Source: Gelidibacter pelagius (GTDB taxonomy: Bacteria; Bacteroidota; Bacteroidia; Flavobacteriales; Flavobacteriaceae). Taken from it: a DNA stretch of 64,000 bases. Position numbers and translations under genes: made by a program. Shown piece by piece: positions 739 to 28,241 of this stretch. Position 1 is the stretch's first letter. The number at the start of each line of letters is the position of its first letter. The stretch covers positions 1-64,000 of the forward strand of contig NZ_JAGEVG010000018.1 in the NCBI RefSeq assembly GCF_017581925.1. The letters run 5' to 3'. The notes beneath the pieces were generated by a model. That model ran no database searches, was not told the origin of the DNA, and saw only the letters and a program-made list of their open reading frames with translations.

Positions 739-1629
739 ATGAAACGAATTTTAATCTTTCTTCTAATTGTAGTAATGATCTTGCTGGTCGCTTTGCAATT
801 TAAGCCGGTGGTATTACAGTTTGAACCAATAAAAGAAACCGTACAAATGCTGGTGCCGTCGGCTGAAAAGACGGATCTCATTCATAAAGATAGTTTGACT
901 ATTAAATCGAGAGTTACTGTGCCAGAAGGCTTCCAACGGGTGAGTTATCCAGAGGGGTCTTTTCAACAGTATTTACGAAACTATAGGTTGAAACCGTACG
1001 GTTCAAAAATCATCAATTATGATGAGACTGATTATTTTTGGCAAGACGGGCATATTGGTATTTTGGAGGTTCCGGTTCCAAAAAACGGATTGCAACAATG
1101 TGCAGATGCGTTGATAAGAATTAGAAGTGAGTATTTATGGAATAACAATCGAAAGGATGAAATTGGCTTTAACTTTACCAGTGGCGATTATTGTTCATGG
1201 AATTCGTATGCTGATGGTTATCGTCCTAAAATTAATGGTAACAGTGTAAGTTTTCATAAAACCGTCTCGAAAGACAACTCAAAAACAAACTTCTATAAGT
1301 ATCTCAACCTCATTTACACGTATTCTGGAACCTTGTCATTATACACTGAGTTACCTAAAATAAATGATGTAAAGGATTTGAAAATCGGAGACATGCTGAT
1401 CAAGGGAGGTTCACCAGGTCATATTGCGATGATTTGTGATGAGGTGATCAATGCTAATGGTGATAAACTTTATCTTTTGTTTCAGGGCAATACCCCTGCC
1501 CAGAGCGTTCATTTGGTTAAAAATTTGGAAGATGATAGAATTTCACCTTGGTATCAATTAAAAAAGGATGCCGTTATCCCAGTGTCAAATTACACTTTTG
1601 GTGATTCTAAATTTGTGAGATTCAAATAA
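739..1629 (+). CDS. DUF4846 domain-containing protein
   Basis: A 296-residue protein with an N-terminal hydrophobic segment (about residues 4-22) that is a signal peptide or membrane anchor, so the body should be periplasmic. The body matches my memory of DUF4846: a YFWQDGHIGILEVP-type stretch, a CSWNSYADGYRP stretch, and a C-terminal block containing GGSPGHIAMICD and LLFQGNTPAQS. The function of DUF4846 is not established. The late GGSPGHxxM block is conserved and may be a catalytic or binding site, but that is a guess. The start is the ATG directly before the hydrophobic segment. It is followed by a separate promoter, so it is probably monocistronic. Confidence 0.85.
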   Translation: MKRILIFLLIVVMILLVALQFKPVVLQFEPIKETVQMLVPSAEKTDLIHKDSLTIKSRVTVPEGFQRVSYPEGSFQQYLRNYRLKPYGSKIINYDETDYFWQDGHIGILEVPVPKNGLQQCADALIRIRSEYLWNNNRKDEIGFNFTSGDYCSWNSYADGYRPKINGNSVSFHKTVSKDNSKTNFYKYLNLIYTYSGTLSLYTELPKINDVKDLKIGDMLIKGGSPGHIAMICDEVINANGDKLYLLFQGNTPAQSVHLVKNLEDDRISPWYQLKKDAVIPVSNYTFGDSKFVRFK

Positions 1630-1668
1630 TTTTCATTTTTCTTAAGAGCCTGATCGTAGGTAATATTG

Positions 1669-1676
1669 TATTTTTG
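1669..1676 (+). promoter_or_regulatory. Bacteroidota -7 element (TAnnTTTG) for the 1681 gene
   Basis: TATTTTTG matches the TAnnTTTG consensus recognised by Bacteroidota primary sigma factor. It lies only four bases before the ATG at 1681, so transcription from it would give an almost leaderless mRNA. No clear TTG -33 box is visible at the usual spacing, so confidence is moderate. Confidence 0.4.
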
Positions 1677-1680
1677 CAAC

Positions 1681-2058
1681 ATGAGCAAAGCACTTACAGA
1701 ACAAGAAATTCACAACCTCGGCATGAATCACGTCGGAAAGGACTTGGAGGCTCGTGGATTTGAATTTATCGCCATTAACAGCAAGCTTAAAAGACATCCA
1801 CAGTTTGTGTGTATGGACCAAACGAAACAATATTTCTTTGTCATCGTCAGAACCGTGATTCTTCCTGAGAACCCAAATAATTATGATGTCATTTGGATGG
1901 AAACCTTTAAAAAACATGCCCGGGAAAATGACGCGAAAGTATTATATGCTGGTGTGGGCATAGGGAATCCCAACGGTGAGGATTTGCCAGTCTATTTAAA
2001 TGAAGAGTACTTGATTGAATACAACGGCATTCAGGTGGTAGAAACCAATTTGAATTAG
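1681..2058 (+). CDS. Small conserved protein next to apbE (NqrF-mislabelled family)
   Basis: A 125-residue soluble protein starting MSKALTEQEIHNLGMNHVGK, rich in aromatic and acidic residues, with no recognised domain. In Flavobacteriaceae this family commonly sits directly before apbE, as here (9 bp gap), and is sometimes carried in databases as NADH-quinone reductase subunit F by proximity to nqr genes. It shows no flavin- or iron-sulfur-binding motif. I chose ATG 1681 rather than the upstream in-frame ATG at 1666, because a TAnnTTTG promoter element overlaps the intervening bases and family members start at MSKxLTxQE. Co-transcription with apbE suggests a link to flavinylation or to Nqr-type complexes; this is inference. 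Confidence 0.75.
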   Translation: MSKALTEQEIHNLGMNHVGKDLEARGFEFIAINSKLKRHPQFVCMDQTKQYFFVIVRTVILPENPNNYDVIWMETFKKHARENDAKVLYAGVGIGNPNGEDLPVYLNEEYLIEYNGIQVVETNLN

Positions 2059-2067
2059 AAAAGCGCT

Positions 2068-3129
2068 ATGACACAGAGTTACGAGGAGAACCATAAAGGT
2101 TCACAGAAATTCACTGGTGTTTTTTCCAAAAGCATTCATGTATTCAAGGCAACGGTAGTTGGTATCCTCTTGATTTTTTGCACACTTTCATGCAAACAAG
2201 AGCCTACAAACACCAAAATGTCTGGGGAAGTTTTCGGAACTTCCTATGGGGTACAATATTATTCAGAGCAAAATGAAAGTTTCCAACGACAGTTTGATAG
2301 TTTATTTGACATCATCAACACCTCTATGTCTACTTATCAACAGGACTCGGACATTTCTAAAATAAATCGGAACGAAGCTTTTAATGTAGATGAGCATTTT
2401 AAAAACGTATTTCATGCTTCAAAAGTGATTTATGAAGCCACTGATGGTGTTTTTGATCCAACCATAGGCGTTTTAGTCAACGCATGGGATTTTGGGCCAG
2501 AGGGGAAAGTCATGGCTTTAGATAGTCTTAAAATTGATAGTTTGATGTTGTCTGTAGGATTGGATAAAGTAACACTCGATGGCCGCAAGATTAAAAAAGA
2601 AAATCCAAACACGTTCATTGATTTTAATGCTATTGCCAAGGGCTATGGAGTGGATGTCATTGCCGATTTCATGGAAAGCAAGAATATCAACGATTATTTG
2701 GTGGAAATTGGTGGGGAAATCAGATGCAAGGGACAGAATTTTGAAAAACAAAAACCATGGAAAGTAGGGGTTGAACTGCCTCATTTTGACGCAGAACAAT
2801 CCCTTTTAAAAACCATTTCATTATATGATGAAGCCATGGCAACATCAGGAACGTATCGGAAATTCAAAGTTGATAGCTTAGGGAATCGTTATTCGCATAT
2901 CTTAGATCCTAAAACAGGCTACCCAAGTAAAACCAATTTGCTGAGTATTTCAGTTATTGCCAAGGATTGCATGACTGCCGATGCTTATGCGACGGCATTT
3001 AAAGCTATGGGACTTGAGAAAGTGAAGACCTTTTTAGCTACGCACCCAGAATTAAAAGTGTTTTTGATTTTTGAAAATGACGATAGAGAATTGGAGACTC
3101 TTGCTTTGAATGGCTTCCCTGAAGAGTGA
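2068..3129 (+). CDS. apbE: FAD:protein FMN transferase, lipoprotein
   Basis: ApbE covalently attaches FMN from FAD to threonines of periplasmic-facing flavoproteins such as NqrB/NqrC and RnfG/RnfD. The 353-residue sequence has a lipoprotein signal ending LIFCTLSC with the lipid cysteine at residue 42, preceded by an unusually long polar N-terminus. Family motifs present: GTSYGVQYY near the mature N-terminus, DFNAIAKGYGVD (FAD-binding/catalytic loop), LVEIGGEIRCKG, MATSGTYRKF, YSHILDPKTGYP, and the metal-binding region DCMTADAYATAFKAMG. It is very likely co-transcribed with the small gene at 1681. No nqr or rnf genes are in view, so its substrate cannot be read from this window. Alternative starts are not obvious in the N-terminal region. 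Confidence 0.93.
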   Translation: MTQSYEENHKGSQKFTGVFSKSIHVFKATVVGILLIFCTLSCKQEPTNTKMSGEVFGTSYGVQYYSEQNESFQRQFDSLFDIINTSMSTYQQDSDISKINRNEAFNVDEHFKNVFHASKVIYEATDGVFDPTIGVLVNAWDFGPEGKVMALDSLKIDSLMLSVGLDKVTLDGRKIKKENPNTFIDFNAIAKGYGVDVIADFMESKNINDYLVEIGGEIRCKGQNFEKQKPWKVGVELPHFDAEQSLLKTISLYDEAMATSGTYRKFKVDSLGNRYSHILDPKTGYPSKTNLLSISVIAKDCMTADAYATAFKAMGLEKVKTFLATHPELKVFLIFENDDRELETLALNGFPEE

Positions 3130-24544: not shown

Positions 24545-26095
24545 TCAATATTTTATACAAACATTCTTCGCCTCCGTAAAAAATCGCAGCGCTTCAAATC
24601 CGCCCTCACGACCTACGCCAGAAGCTTTTATGCCTCCAAATGGCGTCCGTAAATCGCGCATCATCCAAGTGTTCACCCAAACAATTCCGGCTTGTAATTG
24701 ACTGCTCATTCGCATGGTTCGTTTTAAATCGTTGGTCCAAAGTGTTGCTGATAAACCGTATTTTACTTTGTTGGCCATTTCCAATACTTCGTCTTCACTT
24801 TCAAAGGACATGATAGTTACCACAGGTCCAAAAATTTCTTCTTGGTTCACTCGGCAGTCATTCGATACAACTTCAATGACGGTTGGCTCGAGATAATAAC
24901 CGTTTTCAAAATTTTCAACCACCACTTTATTGCCGCCACAAAGTATGGTTCCCTTTTCTTTTTTGGCGATTTCGATATACGCCATCACTTTTTCGAGATG
25001 TGTTTTTGATACCAAAGCACCGATATCGGTTGCTGCGTCAGATGGATGCCCAACTTTAAGCGCTTTTACTTTAGTTACGAAATCCTTTTTGAACTTTTCA
25101 TAAATAGAAGCTTCCACAAAAATTCTGCTCCCACACAAACAAATCTGCCCTTGATTGGAAAATGAAGAACGTACCGTAGTATCAAGCATATTGTCATAAT
25201 CGCAATCGGCAAAAATGATGTTTGGATTTTTTCCTCCCAATTCCAAAGATAGCTTTTTGAATAATGGAGCTGCCACCCTTGCAATATGGGCGCCAGTAGC
25301 AGTACCTCCCGTAAAACTGATCGCATTGATGTCTGGATGATCGATAATGGCCTGTCCTGCTGTTGTACCCAATCCGTGTACAATATTGAGAACGCCATTA
25401 GGCAATCCGGCTTCTTTACAGATTTCGCCAAGTAAATAAGCGGTCATCGGTGTGATTTCACTTGGTTTGGCCACCACACAGTTTCCGGCCGCAATGGCTG
25501 GAGCAATTTTCCAGGTAAAGAGGTAAAGCGGAAGGTTCCAGGGTGAGATACAACCCACCACACCGATAGGTTGACGTAAGGTAAAGTTAATGGTATCTTG
25601 ACCAACACTTTCATGACTTTCACTGGCGAATTGCGTGATAGCATTACCGAAAAAGCGAAAATTACTAGCTGCTCTTGGAATGTCAACTTGCGTGGCCAAT
25701 GAAACTGGTTTCCCATTGTCCTTACTTTCAGCTTCAGCAAAACGACTTAAATTATCCTCTAATAATTCCGATATTCTAATAAGAATCCTACTGCGTTCTT
25801 CCAATGTGGTCTGCGACCAAATAGGAAATGCTGATTTTGCGGCAATATAGGCGTTCTCTACATCTTCCTTGGTGGAGTTTGGGATCTGTCCGTATACTTC
25901 CCCATTGGCTGGACAATAGTTGTCTATCCATTGGTCTTGAATTGGATTGATATATTCTCCGTTGATGTAGTTCCTAATTCCTGCGAAGGCAGGAATCTCA
26001 TCTTGAATTGCCTTATTTACCACGAATTCACGAATTTTTTTGAGTTCTTTCAAGTTTTTTAAACTGAAAGCTTCGATTAGAAAATCTTGCGCCAT
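24545..26095 (-). CDS. Aldehyde dehydrogenase (2-aminomuconate semialdehyde dehydrogenase-like)
   Basis: Oxidises 2-aminomuconate semialdehyde to 2-aminomuconate with NAD+, judged from its cluster. The 516-residue protein has a full ALDH fold: cofactor site SFTGGTATGAHIA, catalytic glutamate in LSLELGGKNPNI, catalytic cysteine in NQGQICLCGSR, and EEIFGPVVTIMSFE. The first 40 residues or so are not family-like. They read IREFVVNK and then DEIPAFAGIRN, which are translations of two dispersed repeats, before the normal NYINGEYINP start. No ATG exists between residue 1 and the core, so the extended start is the only standard one; a non-ATG start nearer the core is possible. Confidence 0.9.
   Translation of the reverse strand: MAQDFLIEAFSLKNLKELKKIREFVVNKAIQDEIPAFAGIRNYINGEYINPIQDQWIDNYCPANGEVYGQIPNSTKEDVENAYIAAKSAFPIWSQTTLEERSRILIRISELLEDNLSRFAEAESKDNGKPVSLATQVDIPRAASNFRFFGNAITQFASESHESVGQDTINFTLRQPIGVVGCISPWNLPLYLFTWKIAPAIAAGNCVVAKPSEITPMTAYLLGEICKEAGLPNGVLNIVHGLGTTAGQAIIDHPDINAISFTGGTATGAHIARVAAPLFKKLSLELGGKNPNIIFADCDYDNMLDTTVRSSFSNQGQICLCGSRIFVEASIYEKFKKDFVTKVKALKVGHPSDAATDIGALVSKTHLEKVMAYIEIAKKEKGTILCGGNKVVVENFENGYYLEPTVIEVVSNDCRVNQEEIFGPVVTIMSFESEDEVLEMANKVKYGLSATLWTNDLKRTMRMSSQLQAGIVWVNTWMMRDLRTPFGGIKASGVGREGGFEALRFFTEAKNVCIKY
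25974..26000. repeat. ATTCCTGC-GCAGGAAT palindrome inside the aldehyde dehydrogenase gene
   Basis: An 8 bp perfect stem (25977-25984 with 25989-25996) and a GAAG loop, followed by TCTCA. It translates on the minus strand as DEIPAFAGI within the N-terminal extension. The same core occurs twice more, both within the RidA-type gene. Confidence 0.9.
26020..26040. repeat. CACGAATTCACGAATT repeat inside the aldehyde dehydrogenase gene
   Basis: This short element encodes IREFVV in the N-terminal extension. It resembles the ACACGAATT units in the 11580-11700 region. Confidence 0.55.
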
Positions 26096-26197: not shown

Positions 26198-26257
26198 AAC
26201 CTCTCAGGTTTTCTGCCTACATTGACGCTTCGGCGGACAAGTATAACCTGAGAGGTT
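26198..26257. repeat. 13 bp inverted repeat AACCTCTCAGGTT between dehydrogenase and RidA-type genes
   Basis: AACCTCTCAGGTT at 26198-26210 is perfectly complementary to AACCTGAGAGGTT at 26245-26257. The 34-base interior contains a nested TGCCTAC...CGGCGGACAAG element. The mRNA would fold into a long hairpin between the two genes. Confidence 0.9.
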
Positions 26258-26287
26258 TGATTTGGCTTTTGTCTCAAAATACGACCT

Positions 26288-26737
26288 TTAATCATGAGAT
26301 TCCTGCTTCCGCAGGAATGCGACGACCTTAATTTCCACCACCAAATCAGGATTTGGTAATTGATGCACAGCTACAGTGGTTCTTGTCGGCCCGGTTTCCT
26401 GATCAAAGAATTCAGCATAGGCTTTATTATAGCCAGCAAAATCATTCATATTTACCAAAAATGAGGTCACGTCTACCACGTCTTTAAGCGTGGCGCCTTC
26501 CTTAGCGAGATTTTTTTCAATGTTTTTAATGACCTCACGGGTTTGGACTTCGGCATTTAAATGCTTAGTGCCCAATTCATCAATAATGTCAACCCCAGCA
26601 ATCGTATTGTCGGCGCGTCTTGAGCTAGTTCCTGAAACATAAATAAAATCGCCAGCACGTCTGGTGAGTGGATAGTTGCCTCTTGGTTTCACCCCCGTTC
26701 CTGCGAAGGCAGGAACCTCATTGTTATCTTTACTCAT
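26288..26737 (-). CDS. RidA family 2-aminomuconate deaminase-like protein
   Basis: Probably releases ammonia from 2-aminomuconate in the pathway; RidA-fold deaminases fill this role in related clusters. The 149-residue protein has the normal core, [52 protein letters not shown] and [12 protein letters not shown]. Both ends are altered by a dispersed palindrome. Near the N-terminus [10 protein letters not shown] interrupts the expected MSKDN...KPRGNYP. At the C-terminus the family end near VEIKVVAF is followed by LRKQESHD, which is the same palindrome in the other orientation. The insertion keeps frame at both ends. Whether the extended protein is fully active is unknown. Confidence 0.9.
26297..26320. 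repeat. ATTCCTGC-GCAGGAAT palindrome at the RidA-type gene 3' end
   Basis: ATTCCTGC (26299-26306), TTCC loop, GCAGGAAT (26311-26318). On the minus strand it encodes FLRKQES and provides the final codons; the stop TAA follows 6 bases later. Confidence 0.92.
26695..26718. repeat. GTTCCTGC-GCAGGAAC palindrome at the RidA-type gene 5' end
   Basis: GTTCCTGC (26697-26704), GAAG loop, GCAGGAAC (26709-26716). It encodes EVPAFAGT just after the sixth codon. A compensating change on both stem ends (A-T pair to G-C pair) relative to the other copies keeps the stem perfect. Confidence 0.92.
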
Positions 26738-26755: not shown

Positions 26756-26787
26756 AAACCTGACAGGTTTTTAAAACCTGTCAGGTT
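26756..26787. repeat. AACCTGACAGGTT / AACCTGTCAGGTT inverted pair after the monooxygenase gene
   Basis: Two palindromic half-sites, ACCTGACAGGT and ACCTGTCAGGT, separated by a TTTTAAA stretch, fill the gap between the monooxygenase stop codon (5 bases away) and the RidA-type start. The same family occurs at 31373-31406. Confidence 0.85.
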
Positions 26788-26792
26788 ACTAT

Positions 26793-28241
26793 CTAATGTT
26801 TAAAATCCTTCGCCACCCGATCGTCTTCCAAAATCTCTTCGGTGGCAGCTTTAACTTTTTCTAAATTCGTTTTTAAATCGTCGTTGAGGTCGAGTTCTTT
26901 GTCCGCCAACATATTCAAAATCGCTTTGTCTTGCGCTCTACCTCTCAACATGGCTTCATAATAACTGATCTCCTCATTAAAGGTGACCAATGAATATTTT
27001 GAGGAATAGTCATTCGGGAAATTCTTTTCCAATGCCATTTCTAAGTTACGCTTTTCTCTGAAAATGGCATTGTTTACATGGCCTTTCATTTCATGAAAAT
27101 TATCGATGGCTAAATCTGCAATGGCATCGGTATCCCTTTTTCGTTTCTTCTCATAAGTTTTGAATATGGTCTCCCAGTCTTTATGACCTTCATCCAAAAC
27201 TTGATCAAATACGGTGACATCTTCAAAGGAGGCGTTCATTCCTTGTCCGTAAAACGGCACAATGGCGTGTGCGGCATCACCCATCAATAGGGTATTGCCT
27301 TTATAATGCCAAGGTGAACACTTTACGGTTCCTAACGGCGAGGTTGGATTGGTAAAGAAGTCTTCGATCAGGTTGGGCATTAATTCCAAAGCGTCTTTAA
27401 AATATTTTTGAAAAAATTCAATCACCTTTTCTTCTGTAGTCAAATTACCGAAATTGTATTCGCCATCTTCATAACTTAAAAACAAGGTCACCGTAAAACT
27501 GCCGTCCAAGTTCGGTAAGGCAATCAGCATAAAACTATCGCGTCCCCAAATATGTAAAGCATTTTTGTACGTTTTAAAGCCACCGTCTTCTGTAGGATGA
27601 AAACTTAATTCCTTATACCCATGAGACAGCCAATCTTGCGAAAAGCTGAACAAAAACTTTTTGCCTAAAAAATAACTTTTCCGTAACGCCGAGCCGGCAC
27701 CATCTGTAGCGATTATGACATCAGCATCTTCTACAAATTCGGTATTGGACTCATAATCCTTAAATAAGGCCGTGGTTTTTTCGAAATCGACAGATTTACA
27801 TCTTTTGTTGAAATAAATTTTGACGTTGTCGTGCTTTTCAGCTTCATCCAACAATAAACCATTTAAAAGACCTCGAGAGATGGAGTTGATGTATTCATGT
27901 TCTCTTCCGCTGTAAGGCGCCATGACCATATTGCCTTCAATGTCATGCAACATACGACCATTCATGGGAATGCATAATTCTCGGACTTTATCTTCAATGC
28001 CCGCTAGTTTCATGGCTTTAATGCCCCGATCAGAAAGGGCTAAATTGATGGAACGTCCTGCGCTAATATTGGCCGTCCGTATATCTGGACGCATTTCGTA
28101 TAGCGAGACGTTAAATCCACGTTGCCCCAGGCGTAAAGCGAGCAAGCTTCCGCAAAGACCTGCGCCGATGATGAGTATGTTTTGTTTGGCCTCTCCTAAA
28201 TCCTCTCCAAAGGAGAGGACTTTTTTAGTGTCTTCTTTCAT
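26793..28241 (-). CDS. kmo: Kynurenine 3-monooxygenase
   Basis: FAD- and NADPH-dependent hydroxylase converting kynurenine to 3-hydroxykynurenine. The 482-residue protein has the FAD motif IIGAGLCGSLLALRLGQRGF (starting near residue 23), the RSINLALSDRGIKAM segment, and the second FAD motif LLMGDAAHAIVPFYGQGMN. The first 20 or so residues, including KVLSFGEDLGEAKQ, are encoded by a CCTCTCC-type palindrome (28189-28220), and the normal family start is near the NILIIGAG stretch. No membrane helix is visible at the C-terminus, unlike the mitochondrial enzyme. It sits between kynureninase and the deaminase gene in the cluster. Confidence 0.95.
   Translation of the reverse strand: MKEDTKKVLSFGEDLGEAKQNILIIGAGLCGSLLALRLGQRGFNVSLYEMRPDIRTANISAGRSINLALSDRGIKAMKLAGIEDKVRELCIPMNGRMLHDIEGNMVMAPYSGREHEYINSISRGLLNGLLLDEAEKHDNVKIYFNKRCKSVDFEKTTALFKDYESNTEFVEDADVIIATDGAGSALRKSYFLGKKFLFSFSQDWLSHGYKELSFHPTEDGGFKTYKNALHIWGRDSFMLIALPNLDGSFTVTLFLSYEDGEYNFGNLTTEEKVIEFFQKYFKDALELMPNLIEDFFTNPTSPLGTVKCSPWHYKGNTLLMGDAAHAIVPFYGQGMNASFEDVTVFDQVLDEGHKDWETIFKTYEKKRKRDTDAIADLAIDNFHEMKGHVNNAIFREKRNLEMALEKNFPNDYSSKYSLVTFNEEISYYEAMLRGRAQDKAILNMLADKELDLNDDLKTNLEKVKAATEEILEDDRVAKDFKH
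28189..28220. repeat. TCCTCTCC-GGAGAGGA palindrome inside the monooxygenase 5' end
   Basis: TCCTCTCC (28201-28208), AAA loop, GGAGAGGA (28212-28219), preceded by GGCCTCTCCTAAA as a half-copy. On the minus strand it encodes VLSFGEDLGEA near the protein start, before the FAD-binding motif. Confidence 0.92.

Follow-up and report, generated by a model that had tools for sequence, protein, structure and literature searches.

The ridA-type gene of Gelidibacter pelagius carries a small dispersed palindrome in frame at both of its ends. In the account that we consider probable, a REP-type element of the form TTCCTGC-N4-GCAGGAA entered ridA in frame long ago, its hairpin was kept, and a further copy reached the C-terminal end of the gene later. 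A reading of the sequence alone had noticed the palindrome at both ends, and it is exact at both sites, where it reads EVPAFAG and FLRKQES, respectively. A third exact in-frame palindrome, absent from that reading, lies in the next gene, ALDH. The positions of these features within the window, i.e., the whole stretch of 64,000 nucleotides that was analyzed, are given in the table.

The gene encodes a protein of the RidA/YjgF family that, from gene context, is probably 2-aminomuconate-deaminase-like. It is flanked by a kynurenine-3-monooxygenase-like gene (kmo) and the ALDH gene, and the order kynU-kmo-ridA-ALDH was found in 12 of the 12 neighborhoods compared, the window included. The nearest named orthologues among the best 80 of 521 loci are those of G. 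gilvus and G. japonicus (96%). As the sequence-only reading stated, the family core between the two palindromes is intact, with the PF01042 match extending over residues 17 to 140. The AlphaFold model of RidA had a mean pLDDT of 48 and was unusable.

Table. Features of the ridA region, with positions given in window coordinates
Feature	Position	Palindrome	Strand	Remarks
N-terminal ridA REP copy	26694..26723	26698-26715	(-), sense to gene	Head GAGG; codons 7-14, EVPAFAGT; 39.1 bits
C-terminal ridA REP copy	26292..26321	26300-26317	(+), antisense to gene	Head GAGA; FLRKQES; 37.9 bits
ALDH N-terminal in-frame REP copy	25974..26003	25978-25995	(-)	DEIPAFAGI just before the conserved NYING; 45.6 bits
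ridA-type gene, putatively 2-aminomuconate-deaminase-like	26288..26737		(-)	149 aa; PF01042 match at residues 17-140
Kynurenine-3-monooxygenase-like gene, upstream of ridA	26793..28241		(-)	Named from context and Pfam FAD_binding_3
ALDH, 2-aminomuconate-6-semialdehyde dehydrogenase-like	24545..26095		(-)	Closest solved relatives are 2-aminomuconate-6-semialdehyde dehydrogenases
Second palindromic repeat AAACCTGACAGGTTTTTAAAACCTGTCAGGTT, AACCTG...CAGGTT kind	26756..26787			Two RAYT genes of the genome are flanked by this kind

The exact palindrome TTCCTGC-N4-GCAGGAA occurs 64 times in the 4,488,652 bases of the genome and its reversed control does not occur, showing that its abundance is not due to chance. 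Within the window alone, with up to three mismatches allowed, the four matches compare with 2.3 expected and are not significant. A covariance model built on 30 copies retrieved at least 105 family members with an E value of ≤0.001, a lower bound, as 150 of the 2,822 candidates were scored. One of the 64 exact copies (C15:388131) is outside this list, so that 63 were analyzed, and three of the 105 matches with nonstandard spacing were left out, giving 102 standard-core copies. The four-base loop is built into both the search pattern and the model. The four unpaired bases before the stem, here called the head, read GAGA in 57 and AAGA in 28 of the 102 copies, the outer stem pair is A-T in 79, and the base after the stem is T in 84. 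The conserved unpaired tag is thus found at one end only, and the length, copy number, and tag of the element identify it as a directional element of the REP type. Genes were called over 465,511 bases around the copies, including the window, with a caller of our own that sets starts by coding score; by these calls, 93 of the 105 copies are intergenic, 1 overlaps a gene edge, and 11 are inside genes. A search of phage records gave no match.

Orthologues of ridA were compared in a set of 81 sequences, formed by the best 80 of 521 loci and the window, of which 80 could be parsed (L209 could not). Carriers of the N-terminal copy were called by eye, and they are probably overrepresented since the window's own N-terminal peptide was one of the six patterns used to find loci. 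Among the 80 parsed sequences, there are 31 carriers, all with the element in one register, and 42 noncarriers; the remaining 7 were ambiguous and were set aside. The carriers belong to eleven genera (Gelidibacter, Xanthomarina, Flaviramulus, Ichthyenterobacterium, Bizionia, Aestuariivivens, Psychroserpens, Oceanihabitans, Lacinutrix, Winogradskyella, and Lutibacter), some of them represented by metagenome-assembled genomes (MAGs) or uncultured isolates. Noncarriers mostly present a few codons followed by VTPRG, whereas carriers read, for example, MSNKKN-EIPASAGT-N-VTPRG. This places the element behind the original start codon and indicates that the N-terminal copy is an in-frame insertion of approximately 30 nt. 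Repeat-free orthologues have neither peptide, reading MSxxxVTPRG... and ...VMAYKKL at their two ends, and the same peptides were not found in repeat-free relatives without a palindrome; peptides with imperfect palindromes are at the same position and resemble decayed copies. Partial deletion may have left remnants in ridA starts such as MNEGTK, MNTNAGTK, and MSNTKDKISAGTS.

The stem of the N-terminal copy is conserved at sites where the peptide does not constrain it. In pairwise comparisons of the carriers, the synonymous (wobble) identity of the stem codons is 0.88, 0.92, 0.85, and 0.79, against 0.44 for the loop codon and 0.48 for the codon that follows; the 47 four-fold sites of the ridA core have a mean of 0.41, and 2 of them reach 0.79. 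Conservation of the stem but not of the loop suggests that the hairpin itself was kept. Codons 17, 18, and 23 behind the REP reach 0.78, 0.87, and 0.80 without any stem, so that part of the effect may be due to a general bias of early codons. When 26 of the 31 carriers were aligned, 84.6% of the pair cells were paired, compared with 19 to 49% in slid structures. Double changes were found at three of the eight stem pairs, a level reached by 11 of 500 shuffles, and the number of further pair types was reached by 74 of 500; the covariation score was higher for a slid control (−2) than for the true structure (0.104 versus 0.085). Double changes that preserve pairing occur in Winogradskyella immobilis (columns 24-39 and 29-34) and in a Bacteroidia MAG (columns 24-39). 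The start of the window's ridA is not unusually stable compared with its shuffles (z of −0.62); the corresponding values are −2.41 for the ridA end, −1.60 for the ALDH start, −2.08 for the ridA start of G. algens, and 0.17 for a noncarrier.

The sequence-only reading had described the outermost pair as G-C in the N-terminal copy and A-T in the C-terminal copy, which is correct, and had explained the difference by a compensating change, which does not stand. Of the 26 aligned carriers, 18 have no pairing at this position, 7 have G-C, and 1 has A-U, and the right-hand C after the stem is present in 27 of the 29 plain carriers, i.e., those without a nested insert, so there was no paired compensating substitution from A-T to G-C in this lineage. 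The same reading had asked whether the peptide is tolerated or the element acts on the mRNA. These options are not exclusive: translation of the N-terminal copy is very probable, judged from sequence comparison, and conservation at the nucleotide level is seen in the stem too.

One challenge to translation is that the N-terminal copy is a hairpin of the 5′ untranslated region, with the protein starting behind it; excerpts of Di Nocera et al. (2013) explain many N-terminal REPs by such misannotated starts (PMC3733652). Codon 16 of the window's gene is indeed GTG and lies 5 nt past GCAGGAA, at a spacing similar to that of start-adjacent copies elsewhere in the genome. Among the 29 plain carriers, however, this GTG is found in the window only, and the codon is GTA in 23, GTT in 3, and GTC in 2. 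The ATG is in the same place in all 29, an alternative in-frame ATG, GTG, or TTG between codons 2 and 15 occurs in 2, and the ATG at which repeat-free orthologues begin corresponds to it and precedes the core by a few codons. The reading frame is open in all 31 carriers, including decayed copies and the two Gelidibacter copies with an extra 21-nt in-frame insert in the loop. The constant ATG, the nonstart codon 16, and the scarcity of alternative starts argue against a start behind the REP and make this explanation very improbable; the REP peptides of RidA would then be translated. It is less improbable, though still unlikely, that the REP entered the same site of ridA independently in several genera, the site being a hot spot. 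On a tree of kmo, ridA, and ALDH with 74 taxa (6 of the 80 parsed rows had too little flanking gene), the carrier label changes 15 times, at least 10 of them on well-supported branches, or 13 times if ambiguous rows are left out, and the label is clustered, with 1 of 500 shuffles as low. This mixture of carriers and noncarriers requires either several losses or gains at one site, and REPs are found repeatedly, in different genera and at differing offsets, at the start of ALDH and the end of ridA. Against repeated entry, the plain carriers share register and frame, their flanking codons are similar (the commonest form is ATGAGTAACAAAAAAAATGAG), and the C that follows the stem in 27 of the 29 contrasts with the T that predominates in the family of the window's genome (84 of 102). 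The loop has a Ser codon in 22 of the 29, and such loops are found in 6 of the 102 copies of the window's genome; these gene-specific loops argue against recent reinsertion or homogenization by other copies; the history of the ridA copy seems to be separate, without overwriting by those copies. In addition, remnants are present in several rows that were set aside or counted as noncarriers.

More serious is the explanation in which the termini are unstructured and tolerate the REP peptides as junk, the hairpin has no function, and a bias of early codons mimics conservation, which we hold to be quite possible, at somewhat below even chance. Both peptides are outside the PF01042 match, several lineages seem to have dropped the insert by in-frame deletion, leaving remnants such as GTK or GTN, and 7 of the 11 in-gene copies are near a terminus, with 4 internal. 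The conservation of codons 17, 18, and 23, which have no stem, points the same way. However, the wobble sites of the stem stand far above loop and flanking sites of the same early region, and the pairing-preserving double changes and a perfect stem, present across many genera in 17 of the 31 carriers, also favor a kept hairpin. In trpF the stem is likewise perfect in all four Gelidibacter carriers, with differing loops and flanks.

The view of the two ridA copies as equivalent insertions is not supported. The N-terminal copy is common to many genera, whereas the C-terminal copy is a lineage-specific replacement of the end: the window, G. gilvus, and G. japonicus have it where a VMAYKKL-type ending is usual, the palindrome of the latter two having two mismatches. 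Similar endings occur in a Winogradskyella MAG (FLRRQESQNK) and in genome G069 (FLRTPESL). Among the 80 parsed sequences, a REP-like palindrome with one to four mismatches lies over the ridA stop in L180, L190, L225, and L243 (at −8) and in L187 (at −5), and one with no or one mismatch lies 9 nt past the stop in L185, L202, and L203.

An EIPA(F/Y)AGI-like peptide precedes NYING at the ALDH start in Gelidibacter, Bizionia, a Winogradskyella MAG, and Lacinutrix, whereas in other genomes the REP is located just upstream of the ALDH ATG instead. Residues 1 to 39 of ALDH are outside the alignment with its best solved homologue. Comparison with relatives suggests that the gene more likely starts upstream of the REP, at the GTG of 26023-26021. 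The Gelidibacter loci L164 to L168 present a conserved stretch near ATTCGTGAATTCGTGG(C/T)AAA ahead of the ALDH REP, which may supply a GTG start, and a stretch resembling it, TTCGTGGCAA, is found at the same place in some other genera.

Across the genome, the placement of the family relative to genes is oriented. Of the 102 copies, 47 have a gene boundary no more than 8 nt from their GCAGGAA side (23 starts, in sense, and 24 stops, in antisense), and none has one that close to its head side. For the intergenic copies, the counts are 46 and 0 of 90, respectively, where random placement in the same gaps gave 4.5 (standard deviation of 1.9; largest of 2,000 trials, 12). In AGA-headed copies, a REP followed by 2 to 8 nt and ATG was found in 16 of 54 in Gelidibacter pelagius and in 43 of 220 (one of the 43 listed twice) in the other 40 genomes with copies among the 100 family genomes searched; the share varies, from 10 of 30 in G088 and 5 of 12 in G068 to 2 of 26 in G061 and 0 of 18 in G096. 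Because this pattern was counted without a check of gene starts, the start rule is claimed for the window's genome only. The stop-adjacent half of the placement agrees with the known nearness of REPs to the 3′ ends of genes, as given in excerpts of earlier work (PMC3733652), and oriented start-adjacent placement was not found among the matches listed in the open-licence literature. Lower translation accompanies structure near the start in F. johnsoniae, a species without Shine-Dalgarno sequences (PMC6847099), and the Bacteroidetes generally lack such sequences (PMC6847099, PMC3155529), as stated in the relevant extracts of these papers; start-adjacent hairpins are therefore expected to matter. 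The spacing of GCAGGAA makes it attractive as a Shine-Dalgarno sequence itself, but this role is not favored, as such sequences are generally lacking in the Bacteroidetes and the arm is paired.

Under the preferred account of an old insertion, a REP of approximately 30 nt would have entered ridA in frame, a few codons past the start, in an ancestor of many genera of Flavobacteriaceae, and RidA would have gained the peptide (N)E-I/V-P-A-S/F-A-G-T ahead of its folded core. This single insert would have been inherited with repeated in-frame losses, and its hairpin kept, most likely as an early-codon mRNA hairpin that tunes expression. Later, in the lineage of Gelidibacter gilvus and japonicus, the C-terminal copy would have followed the genome-wide rule that sets the GCAGGAA side against the gene boundary (sense before starts and antisense after stops), overlapping the end of ridA, removing the usual stop, and adding FLRKQESHD. 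A broader proposal, in which the TTCCTGC family was domesticated as a portable hairpin for translation control at starts and stops, and the ridA copy serves both as coding sequence and as an mRNA hairpin under selection, kept through the radiation of several flavobacterial genera, is put forward tentatively, as a possibility that we would not bet on. If true, it would be an unusual way of tuning initiation in a phylum that lacks Shine-Dalgarno pairing and favors unstructured starts.

Intragenic REPs as such are already known, from the palindromic elements of Rickettsia (RPEs) and the CGTC-REPs covered in extracts of the same survey (PMC3733652); new here are the depth of conservation of the N-terminal copy and the oriented placement at starts and stops. 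Over many orthologues, one can trace how a small repeat became part of a protein, and selection on the nucleotides can be tested apart from the peptide. The strong oriented link of REPs to both start and stop codons occurs in a phylum where start-proximal structure should be costly, and the old question of REPs as parasites or regulatory parts is opened to a direct reporter test.

The genome-wide search for the palindrome, which the sequence-only reading had proposed, found the 11 in-gene copies in frame in nine genes: ridA (two), ALDH, trpF (two), trpG (its open reading frame truncated where the fetched stretch ends), aroC, and the genes of a hexapeptide acyltransferase, a YfhO-like protein, a dehydrogenase E1, and a methylmalonyl-CoA mutase, with recognizable family cores. 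The four internal copies are the two of trpF and those of the mutase and E1. An antisense reading similar to FLRKQES or LLRRQES is present in five genes (ridA, acyltransferase, aroC, YfhO-like, and trpF). By comparison with congeners, the first trpF copy is a true insertion: EIPA(F/Y/C)AGI is present in 4 of 9 Gelidibacter genomes, the window's included, while the site is shorter in three of the noncarriers and is occupied by a different insert in the other two; outside the genus, 7 of 10 matches are much shorter there. The perfect stems of these four carriers enclose three different loops, in genes that are 82 to 86% identical and have 68 to 76% identity at four-fold sites. The REP stretch of the mutase is missing in 4 of 9 congeners, in 9 of 10 outgroup rows, and in the solved mutase. 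A solved structure suggested that the second trpF palindrome is also an insertion; it is not counted as one, since congeners without the palindrome are equally long.

Ogata et al. reportedly described RPE-1 and other palindromic elements of Rickettsia in frame in protein-coding genes. The likeness that the sequence-only reading saw to these elements is borne out, in that dispersed palindromes are inserted in frame in an open reading frame and the core protein is kept. RPE-1 is longer, whereas the TTCCTGC element has approximately 30 nt and is mostly intergenic, and one TTCCTGC copy, unlike the RPEs, shows signs of constraint on the stem at the nucleotide level. The CGTC-tagged REPs of Di Nocera, De Gregorio, and Rocco (2013), among them RPE-4 and RPE-6 of Rickettsia conorii, share with the TTCCTGC family, in excerpts of that study, a short stem (8 bp) starting with AT, a four-base loop (family 1), dispersal, intragenic copies including those at the ends of open reading frames, and the failure to find a dedicated transposase (PMC3733652). 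They differ, in the same excerpts, by their CGTC (or TGTC or CCTC) tag by the stem, where the TTCCTGC copies of the window's genome have none (TGAC follows the stem in 2 of 102) and keep their conserved unpaired end, GAGA or AAGA, on the opposite side. CGTC-REPs are mostly head-to-head dimers of mainly alpha-Proteobacteria (PMC3733652), whereas the TTCCTGC family belongs to a flavobacterium, has a single copy in 58 of the 70 occupied gaps, and is tied to starts as well as stops. Some TTCCTGC copies in related genomes show GGAATGACA, making a common origin with the CGTC-REPs possible.

Dispersed directional palindromes and RAYT-like genes in the same genome are also features of the REP/RAYT systems (REPtrons and REPINs). 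Here, however, the RAYT-like genes of C14 and C15 are immediately flanked by the other palindrome, AACCTG...CAGGTT. TTCCTGC copies lie approximately 140 nt upstream and 280 nt downstream of the C14 gene, the nearest one, which scores 49.1 in NCBIfam against a curated cutoff of 80; because its immediate flanks belong to the AACCTG family, mobilization of the TTCCTGC family by a RAYT is not claimed. Three other RAYT-like loci (approximately 3.2 kb each) contain no exact copy of TTCC[T/C]GC-N4-GC[A/G]GGAA.

The second palindrome family (AACCTCTCAGGTT and AACCTGTCAGGTT) is present on both sides of ridA, at 26201-26260 and 26756-26787, and the Rfam search placed on it two matches to one miRNA family, far below the gathering score. 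Within REP loops, a palindromic piece is nested in frame in the ridA of L166 and L168, the ALDH of L159 (G069), and the trpF of L247 (G106), with peptides such as TLPGGQAG, SLPTGQAG, LSTGQAG, and SPDRQAG, adding seven residues in the ridA and trpF cases; another palindrome, CCCGATAATTATCGGG, is in frame in the ridA REP loop of L158 (G088). In L071 (positions 1477 to 3050; C15, near 49389), a RAYT-like transposase reading frame continues in one frame into an oxygen-dependent coproporphyrinogen oxidase (HemF), with translated palindromes of the AACCTGCAAGGTT type at the joint (LQGFQNLAGQD and LQGLQDLVGF) and no in-frame ATG seen at the HemF start. Positions 983 to 2660 of L054 (C14) contain tandemly repeated segments beside the RAYT-like gene, each segment combining the 3′ end of a purine-nucleoside-phosphorylase-like gene, named by eye, with an AACCTG palindrome and a TTCCTGC REP.
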